A stretch of DNA of 64,000 nt. Origin: Arthrobacter sp. AK04. GTDB taxonomy: Bacteria > Actinomycetota > Actinomycetes > Actinomycetales > Micrococcaceae. Positions 9,148 through 55,496 of the stretch are shown in pieces. The notes under the pieces were generated by a model. The model was not told the DNA's origin, did no database searches, and saw only the letters and a program-made list of their open reading frames with translations. Made by a program: the position numbers and the translations under genes. The number at the start of each line of letters is the position of its first letter. The stretch's first letter is position 1. The DNA is taken from NCBI RefSeq assembly GCF_021129155.1, contig NZ_JAJOMC010000001.1, positions 1 through 64,000 on the forward strand. Direction: 5' to 3'.

Positions 9148-9155
9148 AGGTGAGC

Positions 9156-9480: not shown

Positions 9481-9489
9481 TCCCCACTT

Positions 9490-10674: not shown

Positions 10675-10685
10675 TACACCGAACC

Positions 10686-12871: not shown

Positions 12872-13102
12872 GCCCAGATCCTATTCGATCACAGTTCTCG
12901 TCTCGGAATATGGGCAGAGTCCCAAGGTGATTACGATTGGCACCCCACTCGTGGAGATGTTGTATTTTCAGGGCCGCAAAAAAGGCGGTAAGAAACTCAA
13001 AGCGCGGGTGATTGTCAAGGGGTAAGCGCGCAAAGGCATCGTCTTACCGAGCGACCGTCTACGGAACTGGTACTGACGACTGCAACCAACCCAGCTCTGG
13101 AG

Positions 13103-13861
13103 TTACTTGACTAGTAAAGCGTTGCACCAGCACGGTAACTCCCAGTTAGTTCCAGCAGTTACTGTTAGCCGGAGGCGGCTCAAACCATGGATGTCTATGT
13201 CGAATGGAACCCCTGCCGGGTACTCGACCCTCTGGGGAGGAAGCAGCACCGCACCCTCAGTTGATGTAATGGAGAAAAAGACGGTGCCATCAATCACGGT
13301 GTCGTGACGTGTGTCATCGGTAAGAGCAAGAACACCTTGGAATCGGCTATAGGTACCTGGCAAATTCACGTCCGTGGTGGATGTGCAATTGGCGCAGTTG
13401 TGAAACTCAAATGTGTAGCTGAACGGATAATCTACGCCATTGGCTTTGGCTGCGCCCCGGAATGCCCCGGGTTCCTGCCTCAGAAAGGCGGAAGGTGGAA
13501 GGCTGCTGAGGTAAAGCTGAACTGGGGCCGAAACGGCTCCATTAGCGGACGGCGCTGCTGAGGCAGGAGTTGAAAGCCCGGAAGTTGTGGGCGGGGACGA
13601 AACAGTAGTAGGGCTGGCGGGAACGACAGTCGGAGTCGGCGTCGGCGTCGGCGAAGAGGTTACGAGCGGCGAGGACGACGTCGGGGGCGCTACTGTTTCC
13701 GGCTGACGAGCGGGAGAACTTGTCATAGTCATAGTCAGGTAGAGGGACACTACGGTTGCTATGGCTCCGACCGCACCCCACCACCCTGCGGAATGCCATT
13801 TGGCTTTGCTCTGATTTCCGTCGGGACCGGTCGCATCGGGCACTTTCGTCCTCCCACCCAA
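13103..13861 (-). CDS. Membrane-anchored exported protein with NPCBM-like domain
   Basis: The 252-residue protein has a basic N-terminus, one hydrophobic segment (WWGAVGAIATVVSLYLTM, about 27-45) and no signal-peptidase site, so it is probably a type II membrane protein. A Pro/Ser/Thr-rich linker (about 50-110) follows. The C-terminal domain reads FEFHNCANCTSTTDVNLPG, YSRFQGVLALTDDTRHD and GTVFFSI. This pattern resembles NPCBM-type carbohydrate-binding beta-sandwich domains. Two Cys pairs (CANC and CWC) could form disulfides outside the cell. No enzyme signature is visible. Function is unknown. Confidence 0.65.
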   Translation of the reverse strand: MGGRTKVPDATGPDGNQSKAKWHSAGWWGAVGAIATVVSLYLTMTMTSSPARQPETVAPPTSSSPLVTSSPTPTPTPTVVPASPTTVSSPPTTSGLSTPASAAPSANGAVSAPVQLYLSSLPPSAFLRQEPGAFRGAAKANGVDYPFSYTFEFHNCANCTSTTDVNLPGTYSRFQGVLALTDDTRHDTVIDGTVFFSITSTEGAVLLPPQRVEYPAGVPFDIDIHGLSRLRLTVTAGTNWELPCWCNALLVK

Positions 13862-13975
13862 TTATTAGGAAAACCTCGTCGAACCAGCACCCCAGACTGG
13901 TTTCTAGATTAGGTGAGAGGTGATCGAAATAATAGAGACACCCGACACCGGCAGGAGTCTTCCTTCTCTCCGCTG

Positions 13976-14505
13976 TCAGTACGTCAAGAGGAGCCGATCA
14001 GCGACGACGTGGTCCTCCAGCGTTTGTCCTTCCATTCGAAAACGCTTCAGCATCGAGCGTCCGACGTTGACGAAGACTTCGTGTTCGAACAGGCCCTCTG
14101 GTATCGGCAGCTCCAAAAGCTTCTTTCCGGAACTTTGCTTCCGTCAATACTCAGTGCAACACGCACCCCGCGCGACTTGGCGTCGGCGATGCGTTCGAAA
14201 AGGTCTGCAAGGCTGAAGGTCTGAGCGCCATACAAAATCGTTTGAGTGTGAGTGTAGGGCGGATCGCAATAGACGACATCGCCTGGCTGGGTCATTTCCA
14301 AGGCCTCGCGGTAGTCAAGGTGCTTAAAGTCCACGCCCTCTGTACGGTGAGCCCATAAAACCGCCCGCTTGCCAAATGACTCTGGACTCACGGGCTTGTG
14401 CACGCACATAGGGGTGGACATGCATCCGTCCGCCTGCCGGAAGCGAACGACGCCGCCTTAGCAGGATCGTGAAAGAAAAGGAAGGTCTGCTGCATTTTAC
14501 TCGCG
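13976..14505 (-). pseudogene. DNA adenine methylase (D12 class), triply damaged
   Basis: Read on the minus strand, PFLSRSC, stop, GGVVRFRQADG, VHKPVSPESFGKRAVLW and GDVVYCDPPYTHTQTILYGAQ give the middle of a Dam-type N6-adenine methylase with the catalytic DPPY. The TAA at 14458-14460 sits where the family has Tyr or similar (SCYGG). After SIDGSK (about 14132) a one-base deletion moves the frame; the following frame reads KKLLELPIPEGLFEHEVFVNV to LLLTY and stops at 13976-13978. The N-terminal third, including the AdoMet loop, is absent: the homology ends next to the insertion sequence at 14508. The methylase is therefore almost certainly dead. Confidence 0.85.
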
Positions 14506-14507
14506 TT

Positions 14508-15847
14508 GAATCATCAAAGATGCCCGCGTAGCTACTATCGAAGAATCATCTGAGAATGCCCGCGTAGCGGCGCGTCTGCTGGGGTGGTATCTGCCGGCCG
14601 GGCACTGTGAGCCATGGAGCTTTCGATGAGCGAACGCAAGACCGTCACGAAGACCACTGCCCTTCGATATGCCCGGTCGGACCGGACCGCCGAGAAGACC
14701 ATCCTTGACGAGCTGTGTGCACTGACGCATTGGCATCGTGACCATGCGCGTAAGGCGCTGCGGCAGGCTCTGGTACTCAAGCAGGTCAAGCCCCGGACCT
14801 TCCCGGCCCCGGTCTACGGGGACGACGTGATCGAAGCGCTGCGGTTGTGCTGGGCGGTGCAGGGCAGCCCGTGCGGGCACCTGCTGGCAGCAGCACTACC
14901 GGATTTGGTTCCGCGGCTGCGCCGGTTCAAGGAGCTGACGATCGAGGACGGGCCGTGCTGCTGCTGAAGATCGCCCCGGCCACCGTTGACCGCCGGCTCA
15001 TGGCAGATCGGAAGAAACTCGACCCCAGAGGCCGCTCTCACCCCAAGCCAGGAACGCTGCTTAAGGACTGGATCCCGATGCGGACGTGGGCCGAGTGGGA
15101 CGATGCGGTGCCCGGCTTCGTGGAGATCGATCTGGTCGGCCACGAAGGCGGCAATTCCAAGGGTAAGTTCTGCTTCACCCTGACAATCACTAACATCTGC
15201 ACAGGGTGGACCGATACCCGGTCGGTGAAGAACAAGGCCCAGAAATGGGTGTTCGCCGCGATCAAAGAAGCCACCGCGTCGTTCCCGGTCCTGATTGTCG
15301 GGATCGATTCGGAAGACGGGAGCGAGTTCATCAATTGGGAGCTGCTGCGGTGGTGTAAACAGGAACAACTGACGTTCACCAGATCCAGGTCCGGGAACAA
15401 AAATGACGGCGCCCATGTGGAACAGAAGAACTGGCATGTCGTCCGGCAAACCGTCGGAGACCACCGGTACGACACGGCGGCTGAACTGGAATTACTGAAC
15501 CGGATCTGGGCATTGCAAGGGCAGCTGACCAACCACTTTGGGCCACAGCAGAAACTCGTCAGGAAGATCCGAACCGGTGCAAAGATCACCAAGAAGTTCG
15601 ATCTGCCAGCGACACCATACGAGCGGGGCCTGTCCGACGAGGGCACGGTCCGGAAACTCGTGAAGACCAGGCTAAAGCGGGAGAACAAGCCTTTGAACCC
15701 GGCGGCAATCCGACGTCAGGTTCAAGCCCTCTGCGCTGCACTGCTCACCCTGACTACAGCGAAGCAGGGCCCTAAAAGCCAACCAACCATCCGGGCATTA
15801 TCAAATGATTCCACGATGAAAGCTAGGCGCGCATCTTGACATGATTC
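14508..15847 (+). mobile_element. Insertion sequence with about 55-bp terminal inverted repeats
   Basis: The left end at 14508 (GAATCATC...GATGCCCGCGTAG) aligns, with a few mismatches, to the reverse complement of the right end at 15847 (GAATCATGTCAAGATG...). Each end has a second inner copy of the motif: GAATCATCTGAGAATGCCCG at 14543-14562 and its 18/20 match, inverted, at 15792-15811. The element is about 1.34 kb and holds one DDE transposase gene. No clear target duplication is visible. It abuts the truncated methylase gene, so it may have caused that truncation or a deletion next to it. The methylase N-terminus is not found on the far side. Confidence 0.8.
14614..15839 (+). pseudogene. 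DDE (rve-type) transposase, frameshifted
   Basis: The first frame from 14614 encodes an N-terminal helical domain (RYARSDRTAEKTILDELCALTHWHRDHARKAL) and runs into a stop at about 14967. The frame shifted by one base continues with VLLLKIAPATVDRRL, then the integrase core: FVEIDLVGHEGG (first Asp), VLIVGIDSEDGSEFIN and FTRSRSGNKNDGAHVEQKNW (Glu). One missing G near 14951-14953 (GACGGG) explains the break. There is no A-rich slippery site, so programmed frameshifting is unlikely. The second catalytic position, normally DNG in this group, reads EDG. It resembles ISNCY-type rve transposases; the exact IS family would need a database search. Confidence 0.85.
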
Positions 15848-15943
15848 CTCGGGCCACTATGGAGTTATCCTTTTAGATCCTGAGCCCAAGTGCGAAGCAC
15901 GGCTCCGAGGGGTGCGCCCACGCCAGAGAAACGAAGGTAGCTT

Positions 15944-17995
15944 CTATAACTCCGCAACAGGCGCCGCGAACTGCGCTTCGTACAGCCGCGCGTAGGCCCC
16001 ACCCGCGGCGAGCAGTGAAGCGTGCGTCCCCTGCTCCACGATCTGCCCGGCCTCCATCACCAGGATGAGGTCCGCGTCGCGGATCGTGGACAGGCGGTGC
16101 GCGATCACAAACGAAGTCCGGTCCGACCGCAAAGCACGCATCGCCTTCTGCACCAGCACCTCGGTCCGGGTGTCCACCGATGACGTCGCCTCGTCCAGGA
16201 TCAGCACCGACGGCCGGGCCAGGAACGCCCGCGCAATGGTCAGCAACTGCTTCTCCCCCGCGGACACATTCGAGCCCTCGTCCTCCAGCAGCGTGTCGTA
16301 CCCGTCCGGCAGCGACCGCACGAAGCGGTCCACATACGTCGCCCGGGCCGCCTCAAGAATTTCAGCCTCAGATGCCCCGGGCCGCCCGTACGCAATGTTG
16401 TCCCGGATGGTCCCGGCGAACAGCCACGTATCCTGCAGCACCATCCCCATCCGCGAGCGCAGCTCGCGCCGCGGCACCGAGGTGACGTCCACGCCGTCGA
16501 GCGTTATCCGCCCCGCATCGATCTCGTAGAACCGCATCATCAGGTTCACCAGCGTCGTCTTCCCCGCCCCGGTGGGCCCCACGATCGCCACCGTCTGCCC
16601 CGGCTCCGCCACCAACGAAAGAGAAGAGATCAGCGGCTGCTCCGGCGAATAGGAAAACGACACATCTGAGAACACCAGCCGCCCCCGCCCAAACACCGGA
16701 CCCGTAGAAGCAGCAGGCTCAACAGACTCCTCCTCCTCATCCAGCAAGGAGAACACCCGCTCGGCAGATGCCACCCCGGACTGCAGCACGTTCGCCATGG
16801 ATCCCAGCTGCGCCAGCGGCATGGTGAACTGCCGCGAGTACTGGATGAATGCCTGCACGTCGCCCAGCTGCATCGCCCCGGACGCCACCTGCAGCCCGCC
16901 CACCACGGCGATCCCCACGTACACCAGGTTCCCGATGAACGTCATGGCCGGCATGATCAGCCCCGATATGAACTGGGCGCCAAAACTCGCCTCATACAGC
17001 TCCGCGTTCTTCTGCCGGAACCGCTCCCCCACCTCCTGCTGCCGGCCGAACACCTTCACCAGCGCATGCCCGGTGTACGTCTCCTCGATCTGCCCGTTCA
17101 GCTCGCCCATGTGCTTCCACTGCGCCACAAACAGCTTCTGCGAGCGCTTGGCGATCAGCGCCGTCAGCCCCAGCGTCAGCGGAATGGTCACCAGCGCGAT
17201 CAGCGCCAGCGTGGGCGAGAGGATGAGCATCATCACCAGCACGCCCACCACGGTCAGCACCGACGTGACGGCCTGGCTGATGGTTTGCTGCAGGCTCTGC
17301 GAAATGTTGTCCACGTCGTTCGTCACCCGGCTGAGCAGCTCGCCGCGCTGGATCGAATCGAAATACCGCAGCGGCAGCCGGTTGATCTTCGCCTCGATCC
17401 GCTCCCGCAGCCCGAACACCGTCCGCTGCACCACCCCGTTCAGCACATACGCCTGCACCCACATTAATGCCGACGACAACACATACAGCACCAGCGCCCA
17501 CGTCAGCACACTGCCCAGCGCCGCGAAGTCGATCCCCTGCCCCGGCACCAGGTCCATCGCGCTGAGCATGTCCGCGCGCTGCCCCTCCCCGGACGCCCGC
17601 AGCTGCGCAATCACCTGCTCCTTGCTCACCCCGGCCTGCAGCTCGCGGGACACCACGCCGGCGAAAATCAGGTTGGTGCCCTCCCCCAGCAGCCGCGGCC
17701 CGATCACGGACAGCGCCACCCCGGCCACCGCCGTCACGAACACCAGCAGCAGCCACGCCCGCTCCGGCCGCAGCGTCCCCACCAGCCGTCTGGCCGACGG
17801 CCAGAAGTTCATCGCCTTCTCCGCCGGGACGTTCATCCCCGCGAACGGACCGCCCCTTCCGGGTCCGCCCGCCGGACGGGGAATGCGTACGACGTCGGCG
17901 CTTGCCGTTTTGGCCCCGGGCGCGGTTCCGGCGGGGGTTCCTGGAGCGCCGCTTCCGGAAGCAGCGCCCGACGGCGGGCGGTGCGGCGCGCTCAT
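15944..17995 (-). CDS. ABC exporter subunit (TM287/288-type), second of a pair
   Basis: The 683-residue half-transporter has an N-terminal Gly/Pro/Ala-rich cytoplasmic extension of about 60 residues, six predicted membrane helices and a C-terminal ATPase. The ATPase shows Walker A GPTGAGKTT, the signature loop as NVSAGEKQL, Walker B VLILDEATSSVDT and the His-switch IAHRLSTI. The signature is SAGEKQ instead of LSGGQ, which is typical of one member of heterodimeric exporters such as TM287/TM288 or LmrCD. Its ATG overlaps the stop of the partner gene by 4 bases, so the two are translated together. Substrate unknown; drug or lipid export is usual. Confidence 0.93.
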   Translation of the reverse strand: MSAPHRPPSGAASGSGAPGTPAGTAPGAKTASADVVRIPRPAGGPGRGGPFAGMNVPAEKAMNFWPSARRLVGTLRPERAWLLLVFVTAVAGVALSVIGPRLLGEGTNLIFAGVVSRELQAGVSKEQVIAQLRASGEGQRADMLSAMDLVPGQGIDFAALGSVLTWALVLYVLSSALMWVQAYVLNGVVQRTVFGLRERIEAKINRLPLRYFDSIQRGELLSRVTNDVDNISQSLQQTISQAVTSVLTVVGVLVMMLILSPTLALIALVTIPLTLGLTALIAKRSQKLFVAQWKHMGELNGQIEETYTGHALVKVFGRQQEVGERFRQKNAELYEASFGAQFISGLIMPAMTFIGNLVYVGIAVVGGLQVASGAMQLGDVQAFIQYSRQFTMPLAQLGSMANVLQSGVASAERVFSLLDEEEESVEPAASTGPVFGRGRLVFSDVSFSYSPEQPLISSLSLVAEPGQTVAIVGPTGAGKTTLVNLMMRFYEIDAGRITLDGVDVTSVPRRELRSRMGMVLQDTWLFAGTIRDNIAYGRPGASEAEILEAARATYVDRFVRSLPDGYDTLLEDEGSNVSAGEKQLLTIARAFLARPSVLILDEATSSVDTRTEVLVQKAMRALRSDRTSFVIAHRLSTIRDADLILVMEAGQIVEQGTHASLLAAGGAYARLYEAQFAAPVAEL

Positions 17996-41379: not shown

Positions 41380-41928
41380 TGCACGTGAACTGAACCCCCT
41401 TTACTGATACAGGCGTGCGGCCCGGTTGCGTTTGCAGCCGGCCCGGACTGCTCTCATGCCGTCGGAAGTAGGGTGGTTGCCAGGCATAAAGGGGGTTATT
41501 GCCCTGCACGAGGGGATACTGCCCGTTAAAGAGGGGTGGGTTTCCGGCATTATTGGGGGCTGTTGCCCGTAGAGGACACGGAGTTCCCTATGCCAGAATG
41601 GGCGTGGTTTCGCTTGTCCACGATGGGAAATTCGTAGAAGGCAAGTCGTGTCCGGCCGCGTGACTCAACTCTTACGCGGCCGCTTCCGTCCCCGCCGATG
41701 CCGGGGGCGTGCCGGATTGAGGGTGGCAACTCGGCGTTCTCCTACATCCGTGGCACCCCGTGAGCCTGAAGAAGGCGTCTCAGTAATCGGAACTGGCGGT
41801 GGAGCCGTTCCGATCAATGATGGGCACGGAGATCATGACCGGGTTCCACCCCCTAGACCCTGACATCGGTTCGACGACGAACTGCACCGGAATAGCCGGG
41901 GTGATCCTGCACCCAGGATGCGAGCGCG
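41380..41928. other. Long leader region with repeats before the glucan cluster
   Basis: No convincing gene is present. A weak hairpin (GCCCGGTTGC at 41420-41429 with GCAGCCGGCC at 41434-41443) may terminate katG. A set of similar G-rich repeats follows at 41483-41569 (listed separately). An open frame at 41648-41863 has no ribosome binding site or recognisable composition. The region most likely holds the promoter and control sites of the downstream operon. Confidence 0.5.
41483..41569. repeat. G-rich repeats upstream of the glucan operon
   Basis: GGCATAAAGGGGGTTATTGCCC (41483-41504) and GGCATTATTGGGGGCTGTTGCCC (41547-41569) are similar, spaced about 64 bases. The first has GGCATAA facing TTATTGCC. 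A related stretch, AGGGGATACTGCCCGTTAAAGAGGGG, lies between them. The spacing of about six helical turns suits a pair of regulator sites. Confidence 0.5.
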
Positions 41929-44900
41929 ATGTCTACTGATCCGCCTGTCCCCTTCAATGGGGCCACGGACGGGGTCCTCCGCAAGGTGGAACCGCCGGAG
42001 GTCGCTCTCACTGCCCCGGCCCTTCCGCTGCGGCGGGTGCTGTTCGCCAGCGCCGAGGCCTACCCGTTCATGAAGGTGGGCGGACTGGCTGATGTCAGCA
42101 GTGCCCTGCCGAAACGACTGTCCGAGCTGGGCTTTGACGTCCGTCTGGTGATCCCGGCCTACAGGGGCCTCGCAGGCAGCCCGGTCCTGACGATCGATGT
42201 CCCGCTCGGTCCGATCGCCGAGCAGATCACTGTTCGCCGTCTCCCGTCCTTGGGCGCCGTGAAGGTCCTTGCGCTTGACGCTCCGGGGTGGTTCGACCGG
42301 AAGTTGCCGTACAGCTACCAGGACGGCGATGTCATGCCGTTTGTGCTGTTCTCCAAGGCAGTTACCGCATTGGCCGCCCAGGAGGAGTGGCGTCCGGACA
42401 TCATTCACTGCAACGACTGGCATTGCGGTCTCGTGGCACAGGAAGCCCGGCAGGGACCGCACAGGCAGGCATTAGCGAGAACCGGGATCGTCTTCACCAT
42501 CCACAACATCACCTATCAGGGGCCGGTGGGCGCGGCAACCGACCAGCTGATAGGACTGCCGCCGGGCGGAAGCATGCTGGAACGGGGCATCACTTTTGCA
42601 GACCGGATAAACACCGTCAGTCCCCGCTACATGGAGGAAATCCTGACCCCGGCCCAGGGAGCGGGCATGGACGGGCTGCTGCGTGCCCGCAGGGAAGACG
42701 CCCGCGGCATCCTTAATGGCGTCGACTACGAGGAGTTCAGCCCCGGGCGGGACCCGTGGATCGACACCCGCTACAACGGGGACTTCATCGCAGGCAAGGG
42801 CGCGAACAAGAAGGTCTTGCAGAACCTGAGCAACCTGGAGCCCGCCCCGGACCGGCCGGTCTTCGGCATGGTCGCCCGGCTGGTGTCCCAGAAGGGGGTC
42901 GGCCTGCTGACGTCCGCTTTGGAGCAGTTCGTCAGCCGGGGAACCCAGGTGGTGGTGCTGGGTGAGGGGGCAGCCCGGTACCGGCGCCAGCTGCAGTCGG
43001 CCACGCGGCGTTACCCCGGAAGCGTGAGCTACCATCCCACGTCGAGTGAGTCACTGGCACGGCAGGTCTACGCCGGCAGTGACTTCTTCCTTGCGCCGTC
43101 CGTTTTCGAGCCGTGCGGGCTGACGCCGCTGATCGCCATGAGATACGGGACCATCCCCATCGTGCGTCACACCGGCGGCCTCGCCGACACCGTGACGGAT
43201 TACGCCGAGGATCCAGCCGAAGGCCTGGGGTTCGTCTTCGTGCAACGCCGCGTCGCGTCCATGCTGTCGGCGGTGGACAACGCACTGGCAGTCTACTCGC
43301 GGGGGCCTGAATGGAACCGTCTGCGGCGGCGGGCAATGATGGCAGACTTCTCCTGGCGGGAGCCTGCACGTGAGTATGTGGTTTTGTACCAGGAGGCTCT
43401 GCACTCACGCAGCACCGTGGAGGTCAGCCGGAGAACCGAACAGACCAGCCGGCCGGGACTACGGTCGAGGCCGGGTCCGGCTCCGCTTCCCTTGGCGCTC
43501 GTCCATCATGCCAATCAGTTCCTGATCACAGACGGCTACCAGGACCGGGAGGGCCTGACCTCGCTCATCAGGGGGTACAGTGCGCTGCTGCGGCTGCACG
43601 AGAAGTACCGCGTCCCGCTCAACCTCCACTTGTCCGGGACGCTGGTCGAAGCCGCAGCCTGGCAGCACCCCTGGTTCCTTGCGGAAGTCCGCCGGCTCCG
43701 CGACGTCGGCCTGCTCTCACTCACGGGCGGCACGTATTCCGAAAACATCCTCACCTCCTTCGACAGGGAATTCAACCGGCGGCAACTGCAGGAGTTGTTT
43801 TGGCTCTACCGGCACCACCTTGGGTGCGATCCGGGCGATCTGGAGATCTGCTGGGTCCCTGAACGCGTGTGGGACACGGACCGCCTTGCCAAGGTCCTGA
43901 CCGACCCGCGGCTGCCAAATGGCGGATATCGATACGTCCTGCTCGATGACCGGCTGTTGTATCCCTCCGATGGTGGAGACGGAGTCAGCGACAGGCTTGA
44001 ATTTGACGGGGCTGACCCGGCCAGCCCTCCTCCTTCGGATGCCCTCCGCCCCTACCGCATCAAGGGCGGCAAGGGCCTGCAGGTTGTGCCGATGTCCACC
44101 CGCCTGCGCTACTGGATCCCTCCGGAAAACAGGAGCCACTGGCGTAGCCTGTCCCGGGCGGCCGAGCTTCCAACGGCTCCCGGTGACGACAGCATCCTGG
44201 TCTACGCGGACGACATGGAAAAGAGTGCGGGAGTGGGGCCGTGGCACCCCAGTGCCCTCGGCCGGTATGAGGAGTTCCTGCGCTGGCTGGCCACCCAGCC
44301 CAAGCTATTACCTGTGGACCTCTTATCGTGGCTTCACCAGCGCCGCAGGAGCCCCGGTGTCCGGGTCGTGGAACGCGGAACCTTCGTGGAACTGGCCAAG
44401 GACTGGCACGCGGGAGAAGACTACAGCGGCTGGGGCAACGACGAAGCATGGGCCCCTTATCAGGAGCACCTCGCCCGCGCCCGCCGTGTTGTGGCAGACG
44501 CCGAGCGGGCGGACGCAGAACCGCGGCTGACGGCGCTCGCCTGGAAGCATGTGCTTGCTTCCGGATATGAGACGGCATGGCACGACACTGACCAGCCCGA
44601 CCGGCGGCCGGCCGCCTGGGCCAAGGCTGTGGCGAGCCACGGGCGAGCCGCCTTCGTGCTGGCCGCCGCCGCCGTCTGGTTCGGCCGGGAGGCCCGCCCG
44701 CTGGAAGCCGAAATGGCTGACATTGACGACGACGGCACCGACGAGCTGGTGATGCGAAGCGAGCACCTGTTCGCGGTGCTCGCGCCGGATCACGGCGGCC
44801 GGCTGGTCTATCTGGCGTACCGGGGAGCAAACGGGGGCGTTTTGGTAATCGGCAACCCTACCGACGACTGGAACCGCCAGGAGGGGCTGAACGGCTTTAT

Positions 44901-45459
44901 GGACGTCCCGGCCAACCACCCCGGTGCCCTCGCCGATGGCGGAGGACTGCACGACCGATACGAAGCCAGCATCCACTGGTTGGACGGAGTAATCGTTTCG
45001 GAGCTCAGGAACGTGCAGGAGGACAGCCCTCTCTTCGGGTTGTGCAAAAGGGTGGTCCTTGATGACACTGCCGCCGCCCTGCTGGTGGCCTACGACCTGC
45101 CCCCGGGCGCGGACGGGGTCACCGTTCATACGTGCCTGTCGCCGGACTACTACCGGTTGCTCCGCCACGGCATGGCAGAGCTGCACCGCATGGGAGGAAC
45201 CAGTTGGCAGGGCGCCTCCAGCCGGGCAACACAAGTATGGATAGCGCTGGCCGACGACGAAGACAGCGCCTGGTGCGGCCCGGAGGCACAGGTACAGGGG
45301 CACGGCGTCCTCATCAGCCTGCGCGCGCAAGCAAGGTCCTTCCACCTGCTCATCGGTCTCGGCGAGGTCGACGAGGAGCTCGCCCAAAGGACAGTAAGGT
45401 CGGCCCGGGAACGGCTCGTCACCCTGGCTGCACGCGAGCTGACGGGAGACGGGGCGTGA
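41929..45459 (+). CDS. Fusion of GT5 glycogen/starch synthase and GH57 alpha-glucanotransferase-like domain
   Basis: This 1176-residue protein has two enzyme parts. Residues about 35-505 are a GT5 glycogen synthase: KVGGLADVSSALPKRLSELG holds the ADP-glucose loop, and FEPCGLTPLIAMRYGTIPIV holds the donor-binding Glu. From about 521 a GH57 barrel begins (LALVHHANQFLITDGYQ). Its candidate nucleophile is Glu645 in CWVPERVWD, and the candidate acid Asp761/762 is in YADDMEKSAG, both as in 4-alpha-glucanotransferases. The last 250 residues form a beta-sandwich region (VLAPDHGGRLVYLAYRGANGG) like the GH57 C-terminal domain. It heads a six-gene operon; its TGA overlaps the GTG of the next gene. Likely role: building and remodelling an alpha-1,4-glucan. 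Confidence 0.88.
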   Translation: MSTDPPVPFNGATDGVLRKVEPPEVALTAPALPLRRVLFASAEAYPFMKVGGLADVSSALPKRLSELGFDVRLVIPAYRGLAGSPVLTIDVPLGPIAEQITVRRLPSLGAVKVLALDAPGWFDRKLPYSYQDGDVMPFVLFSKAVTALAAQEEWRPDIIHCNDWHCGLVAQEARQGPHRQALARTGIVFTIHNITYQGPVGAATDQLIGLPPGGSMLERGITFADRINTVSPRYMEEILTPAQGAGMDGLLRARREDARGILNGVDYEEFSPGRDPWIDTRYNGDFIAGKGANKKVLQNLSNLEPAPDRPVFGMVARLVSQKGVGLLTSALEQFVSRGTQVVVLGEGAARYRRQLQSATRRYPGSVSYHPTSSESLARQVYAGSDFFLAPSVFEPCGLTPLIAMRYGTIPIVRHTGGLADTVTDYAEDPAEGLGFVFVQRRVASMLSAVDNALAVYSRGPEWNRLRRRAMMADFSWREPAREYVVLYQEALHSRSTVEVSRRTEQTSRPGLRSRPGPAPLPLALVHHANQFLITDGYQDREGLTSLIRGYSALLRLHEKYRVPLNLHLSGTLVEAAAWQHPWFLAEVRRLRDVGLLSLTGGTYSENILTSFDREFNRRQLQELFWLYRHHLGCDPGDLEICWVPERVWDTDRLAKVLTDPRLPNGGYRYVLLDDRLLYPSDGGDGVSDRLEFDGADPASPPPSDALRPYRIKGGKGLQVVPMSTRLRYWIPPENRSHWRSLSRAAELPTAPGDDSILVYADDMEKSAGVGPWHPSALGRYEEFLRWLATQPKLLPVDLLSWLHQRRRSPGVRVVERGTFVELAKDWHAGEDYSGWGNDEAWAPYQEHLARARRVVADAERADAEPRLTALAWKHVLASGYETAWHDTDQPDRRPAAWAKAVASHGRAAFVLAAAAVWFGREARPLEAEMADIDDDGTDELVMRSEHLFAVLAPDHGGRLVYLAYRGANGGVLVIGNPTDDWNRQEGLNGFMDVPANHPGALADGGGLHDRYEASIHWLDGVIVSELRNVQEDSPLFGLCKRVVLDDTAAALLVAYDLPPGADGVTVHTCLSPDYYRLLRHGMAELHRMGGTSWQGASSRATQVWIALADDEDSAWCGPEAQVQGHGVLISLRAQARSFHLLIGLGEVDEELAQRTVRSARERLVTLAARELTGDGA

Positions 45460-46463
45460 GTGCACCAAACCCTGACCCTGATGCACGGGCGCAGAGGCAC
45501 GCGATTGCCCAGGCTCTGCTAGCTTCGCCGCCACCACTGGATGCCCTGCCTCCGGCACGGGTGCAGGTGCTCACACGCTCGGTTGTGCACGCCTCCCGCA
45601 GCCGGCCCGTCGTCCGGTGGACCGTCGCCCTTGACTCCGGGTCCGGCGCCTCCACCCTGTTGGCAGTAATCGGCAAGGGCTACCGTGCCGGCGGCGGCGA
45701 GCAGGCATGGCGGCTGCTCAGGAGCCTGCGCCTGGCCGGCTTCGATGACCCGGAGCTCAGCGTCCCTGCACCATACGGTTATGACCCGTACCGCCAGCTT
45801 CTCGCGCAGGAGGAGGCCCCGGGAACCACGCTGCATTCGCTCCTGGACGGCGAGCCAGCAGCCGCGGCACCCGAAGCCGGGCGGGCGGGGCGCTGGCTGG
45901 CCCGCCTGCACCATGCCAGGGGCGTTCAGGCGCCCGATCTGGCGGCAGACTTTGAGCAGCTCAAGCTGGCCCAGTATGCCGAGGCGCTGGCCGTGGTCCT
46001 GCCCCAGGCCGCTGCCCGAATTGCCGAGCTCACCGCGGCCACCCTTGGGGAACTGGCAAGGACTGACGGGGCCCGTGTGCTCACGCACGGCGACTTCCAA
46101 CCCAAGAACATCCACTTGGACCGGTCCCGTCTTGTGGTTATCGACTTCGACCGGGCCGCGTGGGCCCCTGCCGGGCGGGACCTCGGCCATTTCATCGGCC
46201 AGACCCTGACCATGGGCGCCTCCCGGCACGGAAACCTGACGGCCGCCGTGCCATGGGTGGACAGATTCCTGGAAGGATACTCGGCTGCCGGCGGCGATGA
46301 AGGCGGAGTCCGATCCGTCCCGGCCTATGTTGCCCGCACCTTCGCCGAGGTCCTTTTCTACCGACTCGTGGTACGCCCGGTCCCGGACTCCTCGTTCGTC
46401 CCTGACTGGCTGGACGCCTGGGAAGGGGCCGTCAGCTCCGCCGCGGGAGGGAGGTACCGGTGA
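45456..46463 (+). CDS. APH-fold kinase with intact active site
   Basis: A GTG at 45456 overlaps the stop of the synthase; the frame is open further upstream but only as a shadow. The 335-residue product has the aminoglycoside phosphotransferase/choline kinase fold. The catalytic loop is VLTHGDFQPKNIHLD (His211-Gly-Asp213, Asn218) and the metal-binding motif is VVIDFDRAAW. Maltokinases and other small-molecule kinases share this fold, and a phosphosugar step would suit the neighbouring glucan enzyme. The true substrate is unknown. It is the only kinase in this operon with a complete catalytic loop. Confidence 0.85.
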   Translation: MSAPNPDPDARAQRHAIAQALLASPPPLDALPPARVQVLTRSVVHASRSRPVVRWTVALDSGSGASTLLAVIGKGYRAGGGEQAWRLLRSLRLAGFDDPELSVPAPYGYDPYRQLLAQEEAPGTTLHSLLDGEPAAAAPEAGRAGRWLARLHHARGVQAPDLAADFEQLKLAQYAEALAVVLPQAAARIAELTAATLGELARTDGARVLTHGDFQPKNIHLDRSRLVVIDFDRAAWAPAGRDLGHFIGQTLTMGASRHGNLTAAVPWVDRFLEGYSAAGGDEGGVRSVPAYVARTFAEVLFYRLVVRPVPDSSFVPDWLDAWEGAVSSAAGGRYR

Positions 46464-48394
46464 GACGGACCGGCAGGCGCCAGACTTCCGCCGCTGCCGC
46501 GGCGGCGCACCCGCCCGGTTCTTCGATTCCGGTCATGCAGGCCCGCATGATCCTGCGCATCTTCGGACCGTTTTTGCGCCCGCAATGGCCAGGCTGCCTG
46601 CTGGCCGCGCTGCTCGCGGTCGCCGGGACGGGCATCGCGCTGCTCAAGCCGTGGCCGCTGAAGTATCTCTTCGACGAAGTGCTGCTGCCCAGCGGGAACC
46701 CCACCAGCCAGGACATCCAGTACATCCTGGTCCTGGTCGTCGTGGCGCTGGCCGCCATCACCGTCCTGGACTCCCTGGTCGGCGCAGCCCGGAGCTACAT
46801 CATGACCGTGGTGGGCGAACGCGTCGCGGCATCAATCCGCACCAGGCTCTATGACCACCTGCAGCGGCTGCCGCTTGCCTACCACGAAGGCACACCCACA
46901 GGTGAACTGACCACCCGCCTGACAGGGGACGTCGACAAGGTGCGGGCGCTGCTTACCGTGACATTCGTTGACGCCTCAACGCACGTGCTCACACTGGCCG
47001 GCATGGCAGGGGTGCTGCTGATCCTGGACTGGCAACTCAGCCTGGCACTGCTGTTGGTGCTGCCACTGTTGCTGCTCACGGTGTCCGGCTTTCGGGCCCG
47101 CATCCGCACAGTGGAGCAAAGCGCGCGCAACAGCGAGGGCGATCTGGCGGCGGTTGCCCAGGAGTCGCTGGTGGCGATCAAGCTGGTCAAGGCCACAGGA
47201 CGGGAAGAGGACGAGTCCAAGCGCTTCCGCCGCCACTCCGACGCCTCAGTCGCTGCCGTGCTGCGCTCGGCGCGCACCAGCGCCGCGTTTGGCGCCGCCG
47301 TCGACGCTGTTGTTGCAGTTGCCACCACAGGCCTGATCTGGCTTGGAGCCCAGCGTGTGCTGGAAGGGGCGCTTACACCGGGGGACCTGATCATCTTCAC
47401 CTCGTACCTGCGGGATTTCTTCGGCCCAACACGGGCGTTGTCCAAACTGCCCGCCCAGCTGACTCGCGCCGGGGTGCGCGCGGCGCGCATCGCGGACACA
47501 CTCCGGCGCAGCCCTGACATCCAGGACAAGCCCGGTGCCCGTCCCGCCGGCCCGCCCCGGAAGCAGCTGAGCCTGGACGGTGTTGGATTTGCCTACACCC
47601 AGGACCGCCCCGTCCTGCGGGACGTGGACCTCACCGTCCCGGTGGGCAGCACCCTGGCAGTCGTCGGACCCACCGGGGCCGGGAAGTCCACAATCGCTGC
47701 CCTTATGTGCCGGCTGCAGGACCCCACCAGCGGCCGGGTCCTTCTGGACGGCACGGACCTGCGCGACCTGACCGGCGCGAGCCTGCACGCCCAGGTGGGG
47801 CTGGTTACCCAGGACGCCGTGCTGTTCCGGGCATCCGTACGGGAGAACATTGCCTACGGCCGCCCGGATGCCTCGCTGGAAGAGGTCCAGGACGCAGCCC
47901 GCGCGGCCCAGGCCCACGCCTTCGTGCAGGCGCTGCCCCGCGGTTACGACACCGTGCTGGCTGAGCGCGGGGCAACGCTGTCCGGGGGCCAGAAACAACG
48001 GTTGGCGCTGGCGCGCGGATTGCTGCAGGGCTGCCCGGTCCTGGTGCTCGACGAACCGACCACGGGCCTGGACGCCCAGTCCGAGCACGCGCTGCTGGAG
48101 GCCCTCCGGCAGGTGGCGTCCGGGCGGACCACAGTGATAATCACCCATCGCATGGCGGCGGCCATGGCAGCGGACCAGATCGTCGTCCTTGACGCGGGCC
48201 GGGTAGTGGAACGCGGCACACACCACCGGCTCATCACCGGCGGGGGCCTCTACGCCGAGATGTGCCGTCTGCAGGGCATCACCGGCTTGCCTCCCACGTG
48301 GAACGGCACCACCCACGGCAATGGGCACCATCCCTCACGGCAGTCCAAACTCGACGCTGACCACGCCACCCACCCGAGAGGAAGCCGACAATGA
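46460..48394 (+). CDS. ABC exporter (half-transporter) of the glucan operon
   Basis: A GTG start overlaps the kinase stop. The 644-residue protein has about six membrane helices (PQWPGCLLAALLAVAGTGIALL, QYILVLVVVALAAITVL and others) and a full ATPase: Walker A GPTGAGKST at about 403-411, signature LSGGQKQRLALARGLL, Walker B VLVLDEPTTGLDAQ and switch His in IITHRMAAAM. It has a Pro/His-rich C-terminal tail. One intact half-transporter suggests a homodimer, as in MsbA- or LmrA-like exporters. Placement between APH-fold genes suggests it exports the operon's product. Confidence 0.93.
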   Translation: MRRTGRRQTSAAAAAAHPPGSSIPVMQARMILRIFGPFLRPQWPGCLLAALLAVAGTGIALLKPWPLKYLFDEVLLPSGNPTSQDIQYILVLVVVALAAITVLDSLVGAARSYIMTVVGERVAASIRTRLYDHLQRLPLAYHEGTPTGELTTRLTGDVDKVRALLTVTFVDASTHVLTLAGMAGVLLILDWQLSLALLLVLPLLLLTVSGFRARIRTVEQSARNSEGDLAAVAQESLVAIKLVKATGREEDESKRFRRHSDASVAAVLRSARTSAAFGAAVDAVVAVATTGLIWLGAQRVLEGALTPGDLIIFTSYLRDFFGPTRALSKLPAQLTRAGVRAARIADTLRRSPDIQDKPGARPAGPPRKQLSLDGVGFAYTQDRPVLRDVDLTVPVGSTLAVVGPTGAGKSTIAALMCRLQDPTSGRVLLDGTDLRDLTGASLHAQVGLVTQDAVLFRASVRENIAYGRPDASLEEVQDAARAAQAHAFVQALPRGYDTVLAERGATLSGGQKQRLALARGLLQGCPVLVLDEPTTGLDAQSEHALLEALRQVASGRTTVIITHRMAAAMAADQIVVLDAGRVVERGTHHRLITGGGLYAEMCRLQGITGLPPTWNGTTHGNGHHPSRQSKLDADHATHPRGSRQ

Positions 48395-49584
48395 TTGAGC
48401 CCAGTTTCCAGCCGGACCCCGCTGCCCTGACGGTTGGCGTCGCCGACGGCGGGGTCCTGTCCGGCGTCAAGGATCCCTCAACCGACCCGGCAGAGCACGT
48501 GCTGCTGCAGAGTTCCGTGGCCCGCCGGGGCGGCCGGCTGCCGGCCACCACCGTCGATGAGGCCGCGCTGTTCCCACTGCTGCGGGACGCTTACAACTTC
48601 GGCCGCTGGCACTCCTGGCGCCGAACCGACAAAGGCTCATCGAACATCAGCTGGTTCGTCCAAACGGATGCCGGTGAGATGGTACTGCGCCGCTCACACA
48701 ACCTGAAGACCGTGGCAGGGGCACGGTTCGAGTTCGCCCTCATTGAGCATCTGCGCGGGCACGGATATCCTGCCCCGCCCATCCAGCGGACGCAGGACGG
48801 CGCCATTTATGCCGAGGTCCAAGGCGTCTTGCACATGGTGATGGGCCTGCTTCCTGGAAGCGCCTATGATCCCGGCGACCCGGCCCAGCTGGAGTTGGCC
48901 GCCAGGGGACTGGGCCGCTACCACTCCATTGTCTCGGAGCTGACGCCGGCCGGAGAGCCGAACCGGTCATCGGGCCTGGCAGCGCTGGGACAGCTCGGGC
49001 AGGAAAACCTCTACGCCGCGGTCAACGTCGTCCTGCCGCTGCTGTCCCCGCATGCGGCAGCGCAACTGACCGAAGACGCCCGGTATCTGGGCGAACGGAT
49101 GGAGCAATTGAATGTCGGGCTCGGGCAGCGGCAGAAGGAACTGCGCTCCCTGGTGATTCACGGCTCCTACGGCCAGTCGGCTGTGCTGGTGGACGGGCAC
49201 CAGCTGACCGGGGTGCTCGACTTCGACCGAGCGGCCCACGATCTTCTGGCCCTGGACCTGGCCTATGCGTTGAGGTCTTTCTGCCGGGAAGGCCCGATCC
49301 GCCCCAGCGGCCCCTCCGTCAATGCAGGTCTTGGCCGGGCTTTTCTCCGCCACTACCGCAGCCAGGCCCCCTTGGGGGACGCGGACCTGGCGGCCCTGCC
49401 GGAGGCCTTCCAGGCCCAGCGGCTGATTGTGGTCGCCAAAAAATGCCAGAACCTGCTGACCAAGCAAGCGATAACACCCCGGCAGTCCAAGGACGCCCAC
49501 AGTTTTTCGCTGCTGCTGAACCGCGAGTGCACGCGAGTGCGCTGGATTACCCATAACCCCTTCCCAGCAACGGAGGACGCATGA
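48391..49584 (+). CDS. APH-fold protein with degenerate catalytic loop (HGS)
   Basis: The 397-residue protein has the APH fold: a nucleotide-binding N-lobe (SNISWFVQTDAGEMVLRRSHN), FEFALIEHLRGHGYPAPPI and a catalytic-loop position reading LVIHGSYGQSAVLVDG. The expected HGD and Asn are replaced by His257-Gly-Ser259 and Ala. The metal-binding GVLDFDRAAHDLLALDLAYAL is intact. This predicts binding without classical phosphotransfer. It overlaps its neighbours by 4 bases on both sides. Confidence 0.85.
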   Translation: MIEPSFQPDPAALTVGVADGGVLSGVKDPSTDPAEHVLLQSSVARRGGRLPATTVDEAALFPLLRDAYNFGRWHSWRRTDKGSSNISWFVQTDAGEMVLRRSHNLKTVAGARFEFALIEHLRGHGYPAPPIQRTQDGAIYAEVQGVLHMVMGLLPGSAYDPGDPAQLELAARGLGRYHSIVSELTPAGEPNRSSGLAALGQLGQENLYAAVNVVLPLLSPHAAAQLTEDARYLGERMEQLNVGLGQRQKELRSLVIHGSYGQSAVLVDGHQLTGVLDFDRAAHDLLALDLAYALRSFCREGPIRPSGPSVNAGLGRAFLRHYRSQAPLGDADLAALPEAFQAQRLIVVAKKCQNLLTKQAITPRQSKDAHSFSLLLNRECTRVRWITHNPFPATEDA

Positions 49585-50612
49585 CCCGCACCCAAATCCG
49601 GTCCCAGCACCGCCATATCCAGGAGCAGCAGGTGAACCGTGCCGAACGGGTCTGTGCCCCTGAGTTTCTCAACCGTTACGTCCGCCCACACGTGAGTCCT
49701 GCGGGTGCCGGCGCCTCGGACGGAGGCGCGTGGACAACACAAGTGATTCAGCTGGATGGATCGGGGGCCGCCACCGTAAAGATCAACCTCGACGGCGGTC
49801 CCCCTGTCTTCGCCAAGCTGTTCCCCTTCGAGGATGGCCCGGCCGTGCACGCAAAACTGCAGGCCCTGCGCAATGCCGGGCTGGGGGCAGGTTCCCCGTT
49901 CCAGGCTGTTGAGCCGCTGGCGTGGTACGGGGACGAAAAGGTCCTGCTGTGCCGGGAAGCCCCGGGCCGGGCACTGTCGGAAATGTTCGACGACGGCGCT
50001 GAACTTAGTGAGGGCTGCGTCCGGGCCGGATCATGGCTGGCCCGCCTGCACAAGGTGGATCTCCGGATCGGGGCCCCGCACTCCCTTCTGGTGACAGGGG
50101 AACTGACCAGCCTGGCAAAACGCCTTGTCAAAGCGGTGGCTGACCATCCTGGCTACGCCGAGGTGGCGCTGGGCATGCTCGAACGGTTGGACCAACTCAC
50201 CCATGACACCGTGGACGGCGTCGTTGCCCAGAGCCACGGGCAGTACCGGCCAATCCACGTCTTCCTTGCAGGGGAAACCGTCACGGTGATCGACCTCGAC
50301 CGCAGTGCCCCTGCGGACCCCGCCCGGGATGTGGCCGAGTTCCTCCACCGGTTGCGCCAAGGCGTTTACTCAGCCACTGGCGACATTTCCCGGGCCGACC
50401 AGCCGTGCAACGCTTTCCTCGGTGCGTACCGGGAGGCAGCCGGCGCTGAGCGCCTGCGGAACCTGCGGTTTCACTGGGCGCGGTATGCATTCCACAGCCT
50501 CAACCGCGAGGTGAAAGGCGGGGACGCCGACTGGCGGGACGGCGGAAACGATGTATTCCGGCACTACCGGGAGGAGTTCTACAGGGTGGCAGAGGGACGG
50601 GCAGGCGCATGA
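49581..50612 (+). CDS. APH-fold protein with degenerate catalytic loop (HGQ)
   Basis: The 343-residue protein has the APH fold with a beta-hairpin N-lobe (GSGAATVKINLDGGPPVFAKLFPF), the helix ALSEMFDDGAELS and the loop AQSHGQYRPIHVFLAG. The HGD Asp is Gln221 and the loop Asn is His. The DFG-like motif VTVIDLDRSAPADPARDVAEFL is intact. It also appears unable to catalyse standard phosphotransfer. Start and stop overlap the neighbouring genes by 4 bases. Confidence 0.85.
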   Translation: MTRTQIRSQHRHIQEQQVNRAERVCAPEFLNRYVRPHVSPAGAGASDGGAWTTQVIQLDGSGAATVKINLDGGPPVFAKLFPFEDGPAVHAKLQALRNAGLGAGSPFQAVEPLAWYGDEKVLLCREAPGRALSEMFDDGAELSEGCVRAGSWLARLHKVDLRIGAPHSLLVTGELTSLAKRLVKAVADHPGYAEVALGMLERLDQLTHDTVDGVVAQSHGQYRPIHVFLAGETVTVIDLDRSAPADPARDVAEFLHRLRQGVYSATGDISRADQPCNAFLGAYREAAGAERLRNLRFHWARYAFHSLNREVKGGDADWRDGGNDVFRHYREEFYRVAEGRAGA

Positions 50613-51607
50613 CGTCAACCATGGGCGTCCTGCTGGACCGTGCGGGGGTTGAGCTCCCGCTGTCCGATCTCGCGAATCTGTGGCCGCTGGGCGGCTGGAA
50701 CTCAGTTGCCCCCGTGCCGGGCGGCAAAAATGAGCACCTGCGCGTTGCTGCCGGTGAAGGCGTCCACTACCTGCGCCGCTCGTACCGGTCCAAACCGCAG
50801 GCGGAACTCACCGGCCAGCTCCGCCTGATGCGGCTGCTGCGGGACCGGGGGTTCCCCGCACCGGAGGTGGTCCCCGCCAGCTCCGGCAGCAACCACGCCG
50901 AGCTGGACGGCCGGTTATGGATCGCCACGCGGGGAGTTGAAGGGACACCGTTCAACGATGCATCGGCGGCGCACGTTCGGGCCATGGGACGGACACTCGC
51001 AAGGTACCACCAGACAGTGGCCGACCTTCCGGCGGCAGTGACCGAACCCGCCGTCCTGGTTGAGTTGCGCACCCGGGCAAAGGACGACGGGGTGGATCCT
51101 GACCTGAGAAACCGGACCGCGCACCTGGTCGCGCAATTATCCGAAGTCCTGCCGCACCTGCCCCGGGTGGTGGTCCACGGCGGGGCCCGGCGCGGCAGCC
51201 TGGTATTCAACGGCAGCGAGGTGGCGGGCGTCCTGGATTTCGACAGTGCGCACGCGGACGTGCGCGTCCTGGACCTTGCCGTCGCCGTGCACGACGTCGG
51301 CAAGGTCTACACCGGTCCAGGCGAAGCCGACAACAAGGTCGCCCTCGACCTGAGCCGGGTCGCTGAACTGCTGGCCGCATACAACGGGGACTTGCAGCCT
51401 ACGGAGGCGGAGATCGAGGCCCTGCCGCTGCTGCTGGAGGCCAAACGGCTGAAGCGCGGCCTGGGGCGGCTCAGCCGGTCACGGCACGGCGAAAACCTCT
51501 CCGCCAATGACTACATGAAGATCCGGCTGGAAGACCAGCGGATCGCTTGGCTGGACGAACACCGCAGCGCGTTGGCAGCCACTGTCCGGAAGGCCCTGGC
51601 CGGATAA
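50609..51607 (+). CDS. APH-fold protein with degenerate catalytic loop (HGG)
   Basis: The 332-residue last gene of the operon has the APH fold: GGKNEHLRVAAGEGVHYLRRSY, LMRLLRDRGFPAPEVV, and the loop VVVHGGARRGSLVFNG where HGD is His190-Gly-Gly192 and Asn is Ser. AGVLDFDSAHADVRVLDLAVAV keeps the metal-binding Asp. A late segment, LLLEAKRLKRGLGRLSR, resembles the late helices of the two sister proteins. The operon ends here, about 35 bases before a convergent gene. Confidence 0.85.
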   Translation: MTSTMGVLLDRAGVELPLSDLANLWPLGGWNSVAPVPGGKNEHLRVAAGEGVHYLRRSYRSKPQAELTGQLRLMRLLRDRGFPAPEVVPASSGSNHAELDGRLWIATRGVEGTPFNDASAAHVRAMGRTLARYHQTVADLPAAVTEPAVLVELRTRAKDDGVDPDLRNRTAHLVAQLSEVLPHLPRVVVHGGARRGSLVFNGSEVAGVLDFDSAHADVRVLDLAVAVHDVGKVYTGPGEADNKVALDLSRVAELLAAYNGDLQPTEAEIEALPLLLEAKRLKRGLGRLSRSRHGENLSANDYMKIRLEDQRIAWLDEHRSALAATVRKALAG

Positions 51608-51641
51608 GGGCCGGCCGGGCACGGAGCACGGGCAAAACTGC

Positions 51642-54743: not shown

Positions 54744-55496
54744 ATGGTCCCGGAGGAGCAGGAACTGACAGGCGGCAACGCGTCGGGCAGGGTTGTGCGC
54801 ATCGGCAACACCGTACGGAAACCCTGGCTGGAGAACTCCGCCGCTGTGCAGGACTACCTCAGCGCGCTCCGCTCGTCCGGCGTCGACGTTCCCCGGCCCC
54901 TGGGAAGGGACGACGGCGGCAGGAATGTTTTCGAGTACGTGGACGGGGTCCTGGCACTGGAGGAGTTGCCTCTCGGCCGCGATGATTTGCTGCGGGTCGG
55001 GCGCATGATCCGCAAGATCCATGACGCGAGCGAAGCTTTTGTGATCCCTGATCCAGGCGGCTGGAACATGCTTCTGCCTGCTGAAGCGCGAGACCTGATG
55101 TGCCACAACGACCTCGCGCCATGGAACCTCGTCAGGGGCGATCGGTGGGTCTTTATCGACTGGGACGGTGCCGGTCCCAGCACACGGCTGTGGGACCTTG
55201 CGTATGCAGCGCAGTCTTTTGCCATGCTGTTCGACGGACAGCCGGTGGAGGAAGCGGCCGCAAGACTGCGTGCCGTTGTTGACGGTTACCAGGCCGATGA
55301 CACTCTCCGCGCGGAGTTGCCCGCCGCCATGGTCCGGCGGACGGAAGCGATGCTCAACCTCCTGGAGTCCGCCCACGGAACCGGATTCCAGCCTTGGGCG
55401 GACATGTACATCAACGGCCACGGGGAACACTGGCGTGGCGCTGCCCAGTATGTCCGGCAGCATCAGTCGGCGTGGGAGCAAGCCCTCCACCGGTAA
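54744..55496 (+). CDS. APH-family phosphotransferase
   Basis: The 250-residue protein has the APH fold. The catalytic loop is DLMCHNDLAPWNLVRGD (HND with Asn five residues on) and the metal motif is VFIDWDGAGPSTRLWDLAYAA, both complete, as in ChoK-like phosphotransferases. It starts near a short upstream region and has no obvious operon partner before it. The substrate is unknown. An enzyme of this kind can phosphorylate choline-like amines or aminoglycosides. Confidence 0.88.
   Translation: MVPEEQELTGGNASGRVVRIGNTVRKPWLENSAAVQDYLSALRSSGVDVPRPLGRDDGGRNVFEYVDGVLALEELPLGRDDLLRVGRMIRKIHDASEAFVIPDPGGWNMLLPAEARDLMCHNDLAPWNLVRGDRWVFIDWDGAGPSTRLWDLAYAAQSFAMLFDGQPVEEAAARLRAVVDGYQADDTLRAELPAAMVRRTEAMLNLLESAHGTGFQPWADMYINGHGEHWRGAAQYVRQHQSAWEQALHR

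Follow-up and report, generated by a model that had tools for sequence, protein, structure and literature searches.

A six-gene operon on the plus strand of Arthrobacter sp. AK04, which encodes a glucan synthase fused to a glucanotransferase-like enzyme, a kinase, an ABC exporter and three kinase-fold proteins without the catalytic Asp (hereafter pseudokinases), represents, with near certainty, a conserved system. The operon occupies positions 41929-51607 of the window, i.e. the whole 64,000-nucleotide stretch that was analyzed (contig NZ_JAJOMC010000001.1, positions 1 to 64,000), and a genome-neighbourhood search found its gene order to be common to several genera, not unique to one strain. 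Under the explanation that we favour, with a probability of about 0.4, the operon would make, modify and export a saccharide derived from alpha-1,4-glucan, and the pseudokinases would serve as subunits for binding or assembly.

Layout and gene content of the operon

An earlier note on this DNA had given exactly these coordinates, and the list of open reading frames (ORFs), combined with a Pfam domain search, locates the six genes where that note had placed them:

41929-51607, plus strand: six-gene operon
41929-45459, plus strand: gene A, 1176 amino acids (aa), GT5 (GlgA-type) glucan synthase fused to a GH57 4-alpha-glucanotransferase-like enzyme
42034-43398, plus strand: GT5 domain of A, residues 36-490
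43507-45456, plus strand: GH57 part and C-terminal domain of A, residues 527-1176
45456-46463, plus strand: gene B, 335 aa, GTG start, APH-fold kinase with intact catalytic motifs
46460-48394, plus strand: gene C, 644 aa, GTG start, ABC half-exporter (MsbA-related)
48391-49584, plus strand: gene D, 397 aa, APH/homoserine-kinase-like pseudokinase
49581-50612, plus strand: gene E, 343 aa, APH-fold pseudokinase related to B
50609-51607, plus strand: gene F, 332 aa, APH/homoserine-kinase-like pseudokinase related to D

Pfam assigns A a GT5, a glycosyl transferase group 1 and a GH57 domain and assigns C the ABC membrane and ATPase domains, whereas the other four proteins (B, D, E and F) match APH; together with the motifs described below, these assignments agree with the content read by the earlier note (a GT5-GH57 protein, an APH kinase with an intact loop, an ABC half-transporter and three APH-fold proteins without the catalytic Asp). 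Its remark that it knew of no named system with such a composition is in keeping with the literature, inasmuch as no account of the set was recognised among the papers listed by searches that reached few subscription journals and did not include bioRxiv. As had been claimed, stop and start codons share 4 bases wherever two genes of the operon meet; the five overlaps read GTGA, GTGA, ATGA, ATGA and ATGA, and this kind of overlap is kept at 57 of the 64 junctions in 14 loci, the window included (L030 and G250, introduced below, were not scored). Gene B has an alternative, longer mechanical ORF with a start at 45132; the start at 45456 is favoured because its overlap persists in other loci.

Distribution and gene order

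The genome collection, with one genome per species, was scanned with the GH57 part as the query, using short peptide patterns from this single protein, so that the scan is blind to distant relatives. Twenty loci were obtained, among which L034-L037 are weak partial matches and were left out of the neighbourhood comparison. Relatives of the GH57 part come from Pseudarthrobacter, Arthrobacter, Pseudonocardia, Geodermatophilus, Nocardioides, Cellulomonas, two Chloroflexota metagenome-assembled genomes and one such genome of Acidobacteria.

A GT5-GH57 gene is present in 16 actinobacterial loci (the window, L018-L028, L030, L031, congener G006 (L047) and G250 (L046, L049)). Nine of these, from five named genera, have the order A-B-C-D-E-F (the window, L018, L019, L021, L022, L023, L025, L026 and L028, the last with A split); five others (L020, L024, L030, L031 and G006) are missing D and have the rest; Cellulomonas (L027) is without D and E; and G250 is rearranged, with A-C, a sulfatase-family gene, an ELWxxDGT repeat protein and then B-E-F. 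Across these loci, B, C and F are found in 16/16 (in L030, in broken frames) and E in 15/16.

A GH57 gene without GT5 adjoins a B-type kinase and a C-type exporter in L029 (Chloroflexi), L032 (Acidobacteria) and L045 (G505, from the window's family); L033 reads kinase-GH57, and its contig stops inside the GH57 gene. Because this small GH57-kinase-exporter set stands alone in divergent loci, glucan transfer, phosphorylation and export are suggested as the basic process, and the GT5 domain and D-F look like additions to the core in the actinobacterial form. The earlier note had treated the six genes as one set, which is borne out by the order kept in nine loci but has to be qualified, as D, the sole gene missing from 5 of the 16 loci, is dispensable and GT5, D, E and F are apparently added.

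In L045, the compact kinase-GH57-exporter set lies at 6355-11369 and its kinase is highly divergent (HGDLHPDN); the 18 kb of sequence examined there contain no separate D, E or F gene.

The flanks of 13 loci were compared for families present in three or more of them, and an unrelated ABC ATPase group was the sole family of this kind. As the flanks hold no other recurring family, the shared unit ends at A and F. When genome samples were searched (the window's own genome counted), the GH57 gene was found in 3 of 197 genomes of the family sample, one of which, G505, is GT5-less, and at good length in 2 of 396 genomes of the phylum sample; any GH57 match (E <= 0.001) was present in 15 of the 396, 13 of them being partial and weak (26-35% identity) and not counted. 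Samples of Chloroflexi (1/251) and Acidobacteria (1/247) returned the starting genomes only (E <= 1e-30).

The A protein of Cellulomonas, of the same taxonomic order as Pseudarthrobacter, is 57% identical to that of the window, whereas that of Geodermatophilus, from another order, is 72% identical; this greater divergence of the Cellulomonas protein suggests that the operon may have spread horizontally. In a tree of 46 kinase and pseudokinase rows (see below), horizontal transfer was not settled from the tree alone.

Glucan synthase fusion, kinase and exporter

Profiles were built without the frame-broken or partial rows L002, L003, L028 and L030, for C-F also without L027, L029, L032 and L033, and for D also without L020; structure alignments left out L030 and the genomes known only by G-number.

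The GT5 domain of A scores 448.4 bits against the glgA model TIGR02095 (cut-off 328.45), which places it in the family, and it stays under the respective cut-offs of 11 narrower GlgA models. When aligned to E. coli GlgA (residues 36-488), it keeps the Lys of KxGGL, the His of the HN motif, the Arg/Lys of RL..QKG and the Glu of FEPCGL, residues that are catalytic in that enzyme. The GH57 part also exceeds the cut-off of its family (48.2 bits against PF03065, cut-off 21.2), and its profile matched one solved structure, that of the T. litoralis 4-alpha-glucanotransferase 1k1w (E 9e-17), whose E123 and D214, presumably the nucleophile and the acid/base, respectively, pair with E645 and D762 of A, both invariant in 11/11 rows. 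The host's own glgC and GT4-type glycogen synthase genes lie within ~2.6 kb of each other on another contig. Thus, A would be a second synthase and not the housekeeping enzyme, and ADP-glucose is likely to be available in the host because glgC is present.

Kinase B has an intact catalytic loop (HGDFQPKN and IDFD), with the HGD....N and DxD motifs of an APH-fold kinase; the catalytic Asp and these motifs are present in 18/18 aligned rows, and the motifs are intact in G250 and G505 too. It scores 64 bits against PF01636 (cut-off 23.2), and its AlphaFold model (predicted local distance difference test score, pLDDT, 90) is a confident APH fold. Among solved structures, its closest neighbours are LxmK, PsiK, homoserine kinase and methylthioribose (MTR) kinase, tied at Z 22-23, with LxmK at the top (Z 23.1) and maltokinase (Z 20.9) and glucosamine kinase slightly lower. 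Against the maltokinase model of the GlgE pathway (TIGR02457), B gave no match at E <= 0.1 and E reached 14.2 bits (cut-off 375).

Exporter C has conserved Walker A, signature and Walker B motifs in all 16 rows long enough to include them. With 467.6 bits, C falls short of the MsbA_rel cut-off (780.4), and with 244-409 bits it also stays under the respective cut-offs of the models for MsbA lipid A, HepA, glucan (PRK13657) and ChvA.

Pseudokinases D, E and F

In place of the kinase HGD motif, D carries HGSYGQSA...LDFD, E carries HGQYRPIH...IDLD and F carries HGGARRGS...LDFD; the catalytic Asp and the downstream Asn are thus lost in all three, and the second metal-site Asp (DxD) is retained. By the catalytic Asp of HGD, none of D, E and F is an active APH-fold kinase. 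The position of the catalytic Asp is occupied by Ser in 9/9 full rows of D, by Gln in 13/13 rows of E and in G250, and by Gly at the aligned column in 14/14 rows of F, of which row L030 is frame-broken there; in F, the motif HGG.RR is present in G250 and in 13 of the 14 rows, the remaining one being L030. D has a ratio of nonsynonymous to synonymous substitution rates (dN/dS) of 0.20-0.28 (three pairs); the values are 0.11-0.19 in E and 0.10-0.25 in F, compared with 0.12-0.26 in B (four pairs). Purifying selection acts on all three pseudokinase genes, whose replacement motifs are conserved, and in most comparisons the constraint is weakest on D. Remnants of D persist between C and E in L020 (~14940-15390, tblastn E 1e-18) and L047 (~14590-14757, E 1e-7), which indicates that D is in the course of loss in some strains.

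E has a mean column identity of 80% (12 rows), and its invariant Lys K79 is probably equivalent to the invariant K74 of B. At E <= 1e-12, the E profile found members of its own family only in 2 of the 396 sampled phylum genomes, both of which also have A, and the second match in each is the B gene. The structure model of E (pLDDT 66) is too poor for use.

In the 46-row tree, B and E rows fall into one group and D and F rows into another, with good separation between the two (100/100). The E family (100/100) and the F family (99/100) each include the distant G250 member; 6 of the 7 D rows group together (100/99), and the D of Nocardioides falls, without resolution, at the base of the group formed by D and F; and the actinobacterial B rows group (90/99) apart from those of G250 and other phyla, whose places lack resolution. 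Long-branch warnings apply to the B rows of L032, G505, L033 and L029 and to G250_F; L002, L003, L019, L022, L030 and the D fragment of L020 were left out, and the Cellulomonas F, which is in one open frame with a nucleotide-sugar dehydrogenase, was trimmed to its APH part. Against the CotS-family model TIGR02906, D scores 42.2 and F 21.0 bits (cut-off 172.7), i.e. neither scores as a bacterial spore kinase; homoserine kinase models outscore the CotS model for both, yet D and F are below the cut-offs of these models too.

Insertion site and leader

The operon and its leader form an accessory stretch:

41449-51639, plus strand: accessory stretch, operon plus a leader of ~480 base pairs (bp), between katG and an SDR-type gene, delimited by blastn against an operon-free congener
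41449-41928, plus strand: leader upstream of A, with G-rich repeated stretches followed by a part alike in congener G006

The operon is accessory, as the neighbouring genes occur without it in five congeners. In congener G021 (L077), the same flanks are found in order (GH127, AraC, katG / SDR, APH, HAD, MFS) with a katG-SDR gap of ~100 bp and no operon, and the blastn homology of the window to this site stops at ~41448 and resumes at ~51640; in four further congener loci (L078-L081), katG and the SDR gene are near each other and A is absent. An operon-free site of this kind fits gain and clean loss alike. The site is common to Pseudarthrobacter-like strains, since the window, G006 and L018 all have katG ahead of the operon and these three and L019 have the SDR gene close by; one old insertion with later losses and repeated insertion both fit these data.

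Part of the leader is 83% identical over 413 bp in G006 and is not alike in L018. No riboswitch or other known RNA was found in it (no Rfam match even at E <= 1), nor was a sigma-70-type promoter match, and terminators were in no excess (6 counted vs. 5.5 in shuffles). G-rich repeats resembling GGGGGTTATTGCCC lie at ~41449-41590, in the gap between katG and the operon, and are more numerous upstream of A in G006 (L047). Carriage by plasmids was rejected, with 0 matches in 72,556 plasmid records, as was carriage by viruses, since 47 pattern matches in viral contigs included 0 confirmed relatives.

Elsewhere in the window, the region 8001-16000 has a GC content of 0.515-0.592 vs. ~0.65, encodes a DUF4357 protein and a weak integrase-core match, and is probably a genomic island; an HsdR-N-like protein is encoded at 7327-8472, just before and into this low-GC stretch. 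Downstream of the operon and outside it, a separate ORF with an APH domain (54744-55496, 250 aa) is 85% identical over 250 aa in G021.

Discussion

The mechanism that we tentatively propose begins with the GT5 domain of A, which, judging by its kept residues, would build an alpha-1,4-glucan from ADP-glucose supplied by the host. The GH57 part, as a putative 4-alpha-glucanotransferase, would then cut this glucan and move it to an acceptor or to itself, B would phosphorylate the acceptor or the product, and a homodimer of C would export the product. The weakest step concerns D, E and F, which may be non-phosphorylating subunits that bind a ligand (a sugar, a nucleotide or a nucleotide-sugar), or may instead, or in addition, assemble A, B and C at the membrane in the manner of CotS for CotSA. 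The nucleotide-sugar dehydrogenase joined to F in Cellulomonas and the sulfatase-family gene of G250 point to carbohydrate or ester chemistry and count in favour of a saccharide product. Synthesis, phosphorylation and export of an alpha-glucan product had been put forward in the earlier note; this fits the kept residues of GT5, GH57, the kinase and the ABC protein, the ADP-glucose enzyme of the host, and the GH57-kinase-exporter core in other phyla, whereas the product, the substrate of B, the cargo of C and the functional role of D-F are parts that we infer from the genes alone.

Several observations weigh against such a saccharide pathway. The substrates of the structural neighbours of B are diverse (peptide, tryptamine, homoserine, methylthioribose, maltose and glucosamine), and because they differ so widely, the substrate of B is not readable from its fold and a sugar is not favoured. 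Besides glycans, ABC half-exporters like C transport lipids, peptides and drugs; of the 192 NCBIfam models matched by C, 25 were listed, and C stays below the cut-off of each of these. The operon is rare, the GH57 gene being present in 2 of 59 sampled relatives (own genome counted). As the small core is without GT5, the basic reaction does not require the glucan synthase; the GH57 part of A, for its part, could simply hydrolyse. A is split by a frameshift in L028 (at 10597-10801, the same in L048, Arthrobacter sp. CAU 1506), broken in L030 (Arthrobacter sp. OVS8) and interrupted in G250, so it may be dispensable in some strains unless these breaks are sequencing errors; either such errors or ongoing loss would account for them. 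D, in turn, is the least constrained gene in 2 of 3 pairs, those of lowest divergence, and is gone from several strains, missing in L024, L030 and L031 and decayed in L020 and L047.

Among the alternatives, cytoplasmic remodelling and control of alpha-glucan is unlikely: A would make and trim a storage glucan, B and the pseudokinases would regulate this by phosphorylation or binding, and C would export an unrelated by-product or lipid. The GT5-GH57 pair alone would be enough for glucan metabolism, and the lowering of glycogen in an archaeon that lost a GH57 amylase, described in the accessible text of PMC11046441, counts for this view; however, C is present in all 16 actinobacterial loci and in the three divergent loci long enough to tell, which makes the exporter more firmly core than GT5. 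Moreover, GlgC and GlgA genes for housekeeping are present in the host anyway, and an operon found in 2 of 59 relatives is ill-suited to a housekeeping role. Rather unlikely is a phosphorylated oligosaccharide resembling acarbose, whereby the glucanotransferase would extend a core, the kinase would give self-protection and the ABC protein would release the product. The acarbose cluster has an ABC exporter, and its kinase AcbK belongs to another fold. In that cluster, from Actinoplanes, a 4-alpha-glucanotransferase (AcbQ) and an intracellular kinase (AcbK, acarbose 7-phosphotransferase) both act on intracellular acarbose, according to the available part of PMC10146171, where neither pseudokinases nor GT5 are named. 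The accessory distribution of our operon likewise resembles that of a metabolite cluster. What speaks against this option is the absence of a cyclitol synthase, an aminotransferase and other core-forming enzymes from the six genes and ten neighbouring proteins scanned, none of which recurs in three or more of the 13 flanks, so that the gene content, without cyclitol or aminosugar genes, is not of the acarbose type; nor do three pseudokinases find a place in such a scheme.

The peptide option, in which B would phosphorylate, like LxmK, Ser/Thr residues of a peptide and C would export that peptide, derives from LxmK being the best NCBIfam match of both B (39.6 bits) and E (27.8 bits) as well as the top, though tied, structural neighbour of B (with PsiK, homoserine kinase and MTR kinase). 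With both scores far under the cut-off of 315 for LxmK, no recognisable class V lanthipeptide synthetase, no lyase or cyclase domain in the six genes, overlaps that leave no room for a precursor gene, and GT5-GH57 left unexplained, we regard it as very improbable. An anti-phage or conflict system is scarcely credible: apart from the accessory distribution, one can point to a weak match of B to the TCAD9 conflict domain (E 7e-5, 22.6 bits, cut-off 40), found also for the B of G250, and to genes resembling CHAT, NACHT and subtilase in the vicinity of L029 (Chloroflexi), read from translations only. PADLOC, however, gave eight ATPase-type matches for C (the best, mad3 at 112.7 bits, being read as a general ATPase), one marginal match for E and none for A, B, D or F, and no recurring defence neighbours were found in the flanks of the 13 loci.

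Among systems that combine glucan synthesis with other functions, fungal alpha-glucan synthases join an amylase-like part, GT5 and a membrane part for cell-wall alpha-glucan, with GH13 instead of GH57, in a single polypeptide without kinases or ABC. In the GlgE/capsular alpha-glucan pathway of mycobacteria, intracellular alpha-glucan is partly exported and a maltokinase, whose structure is among the neighbours of B, takes part; the accessible text of PMC11046441 describes the export mechanism as unknown. The operon has no gene for GlgE, TreS or GlgB.

The closest precedent for D-F, by analogy, would be the bacterial spore kinase (BSK) clusters of Firmicutes (CotS-CotSA-YtaA-YtcC; Bacillus and Clostridium), a resemblance that does not figure in the earlier note. 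As far as the available part of PMC2860764 describes them, APH/CAK-fold kinases and pseudokinases are encoded there beside glycosyltransferases and nucleotide-sugar enzymes, several BSKs occur in one Clostridium operon flanked by glycosyltransferases, and CotS is reported to be required for the entry of its partner glycosyltransferase CotSA into the spore. Our operon shares with these clusters the presence of several APH/CAK-fold pseudokinases without the catalytic Asp near glycosyltransferases and thus, by gene content, the BSK type of clustering of kinase and pseudokinase members; furthermore, the nucleotide-sugar dehydrogenase in frame with F in Cellulomonas has a counterpart in the UDP-glucose 6-dehydrogenase of the Bacillus cluster and is an independent hint toward the parallel. 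The differences are that Actinobacteria are involved and not endospore-forming Firmicutes, that the glycosyltransferase is a GT5-GH57 fusion, that an ABC exporter belongs to the core, and that D and F score nearer to homoserine kinase than to CotS, with B and E nearest to LxmK. As D and F are under the CotS-family cut-off, the resemblance is a parallel, not membership.

Some pseudokinases carry out other transfers, e.g. AMP transfer. There is a modest chance that the three pseudokinases of the operon do so too, performing a transfer other than ordinary phosphorylation, or that they form a ligand-sensing scaffold coupling the glucan synthase to the exporter, in an undescribed actinobacterial machine for alpha-glucan synthesis and export.

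In soil genera, overlapping genes link a glucan synthase and a glucanotransferase to a kinase and an exporter, which poses a question that can be approached directly by gene removal. The operon is also a natural case for the puzzle raised by the spore kinases, namely, why APH-fold pseudokinases persist beside glycosyltransferases: here, outside the endospore-forming Firmicutes, three pseudokinase genes show both purifying selection and conservation of their replacement motifs.

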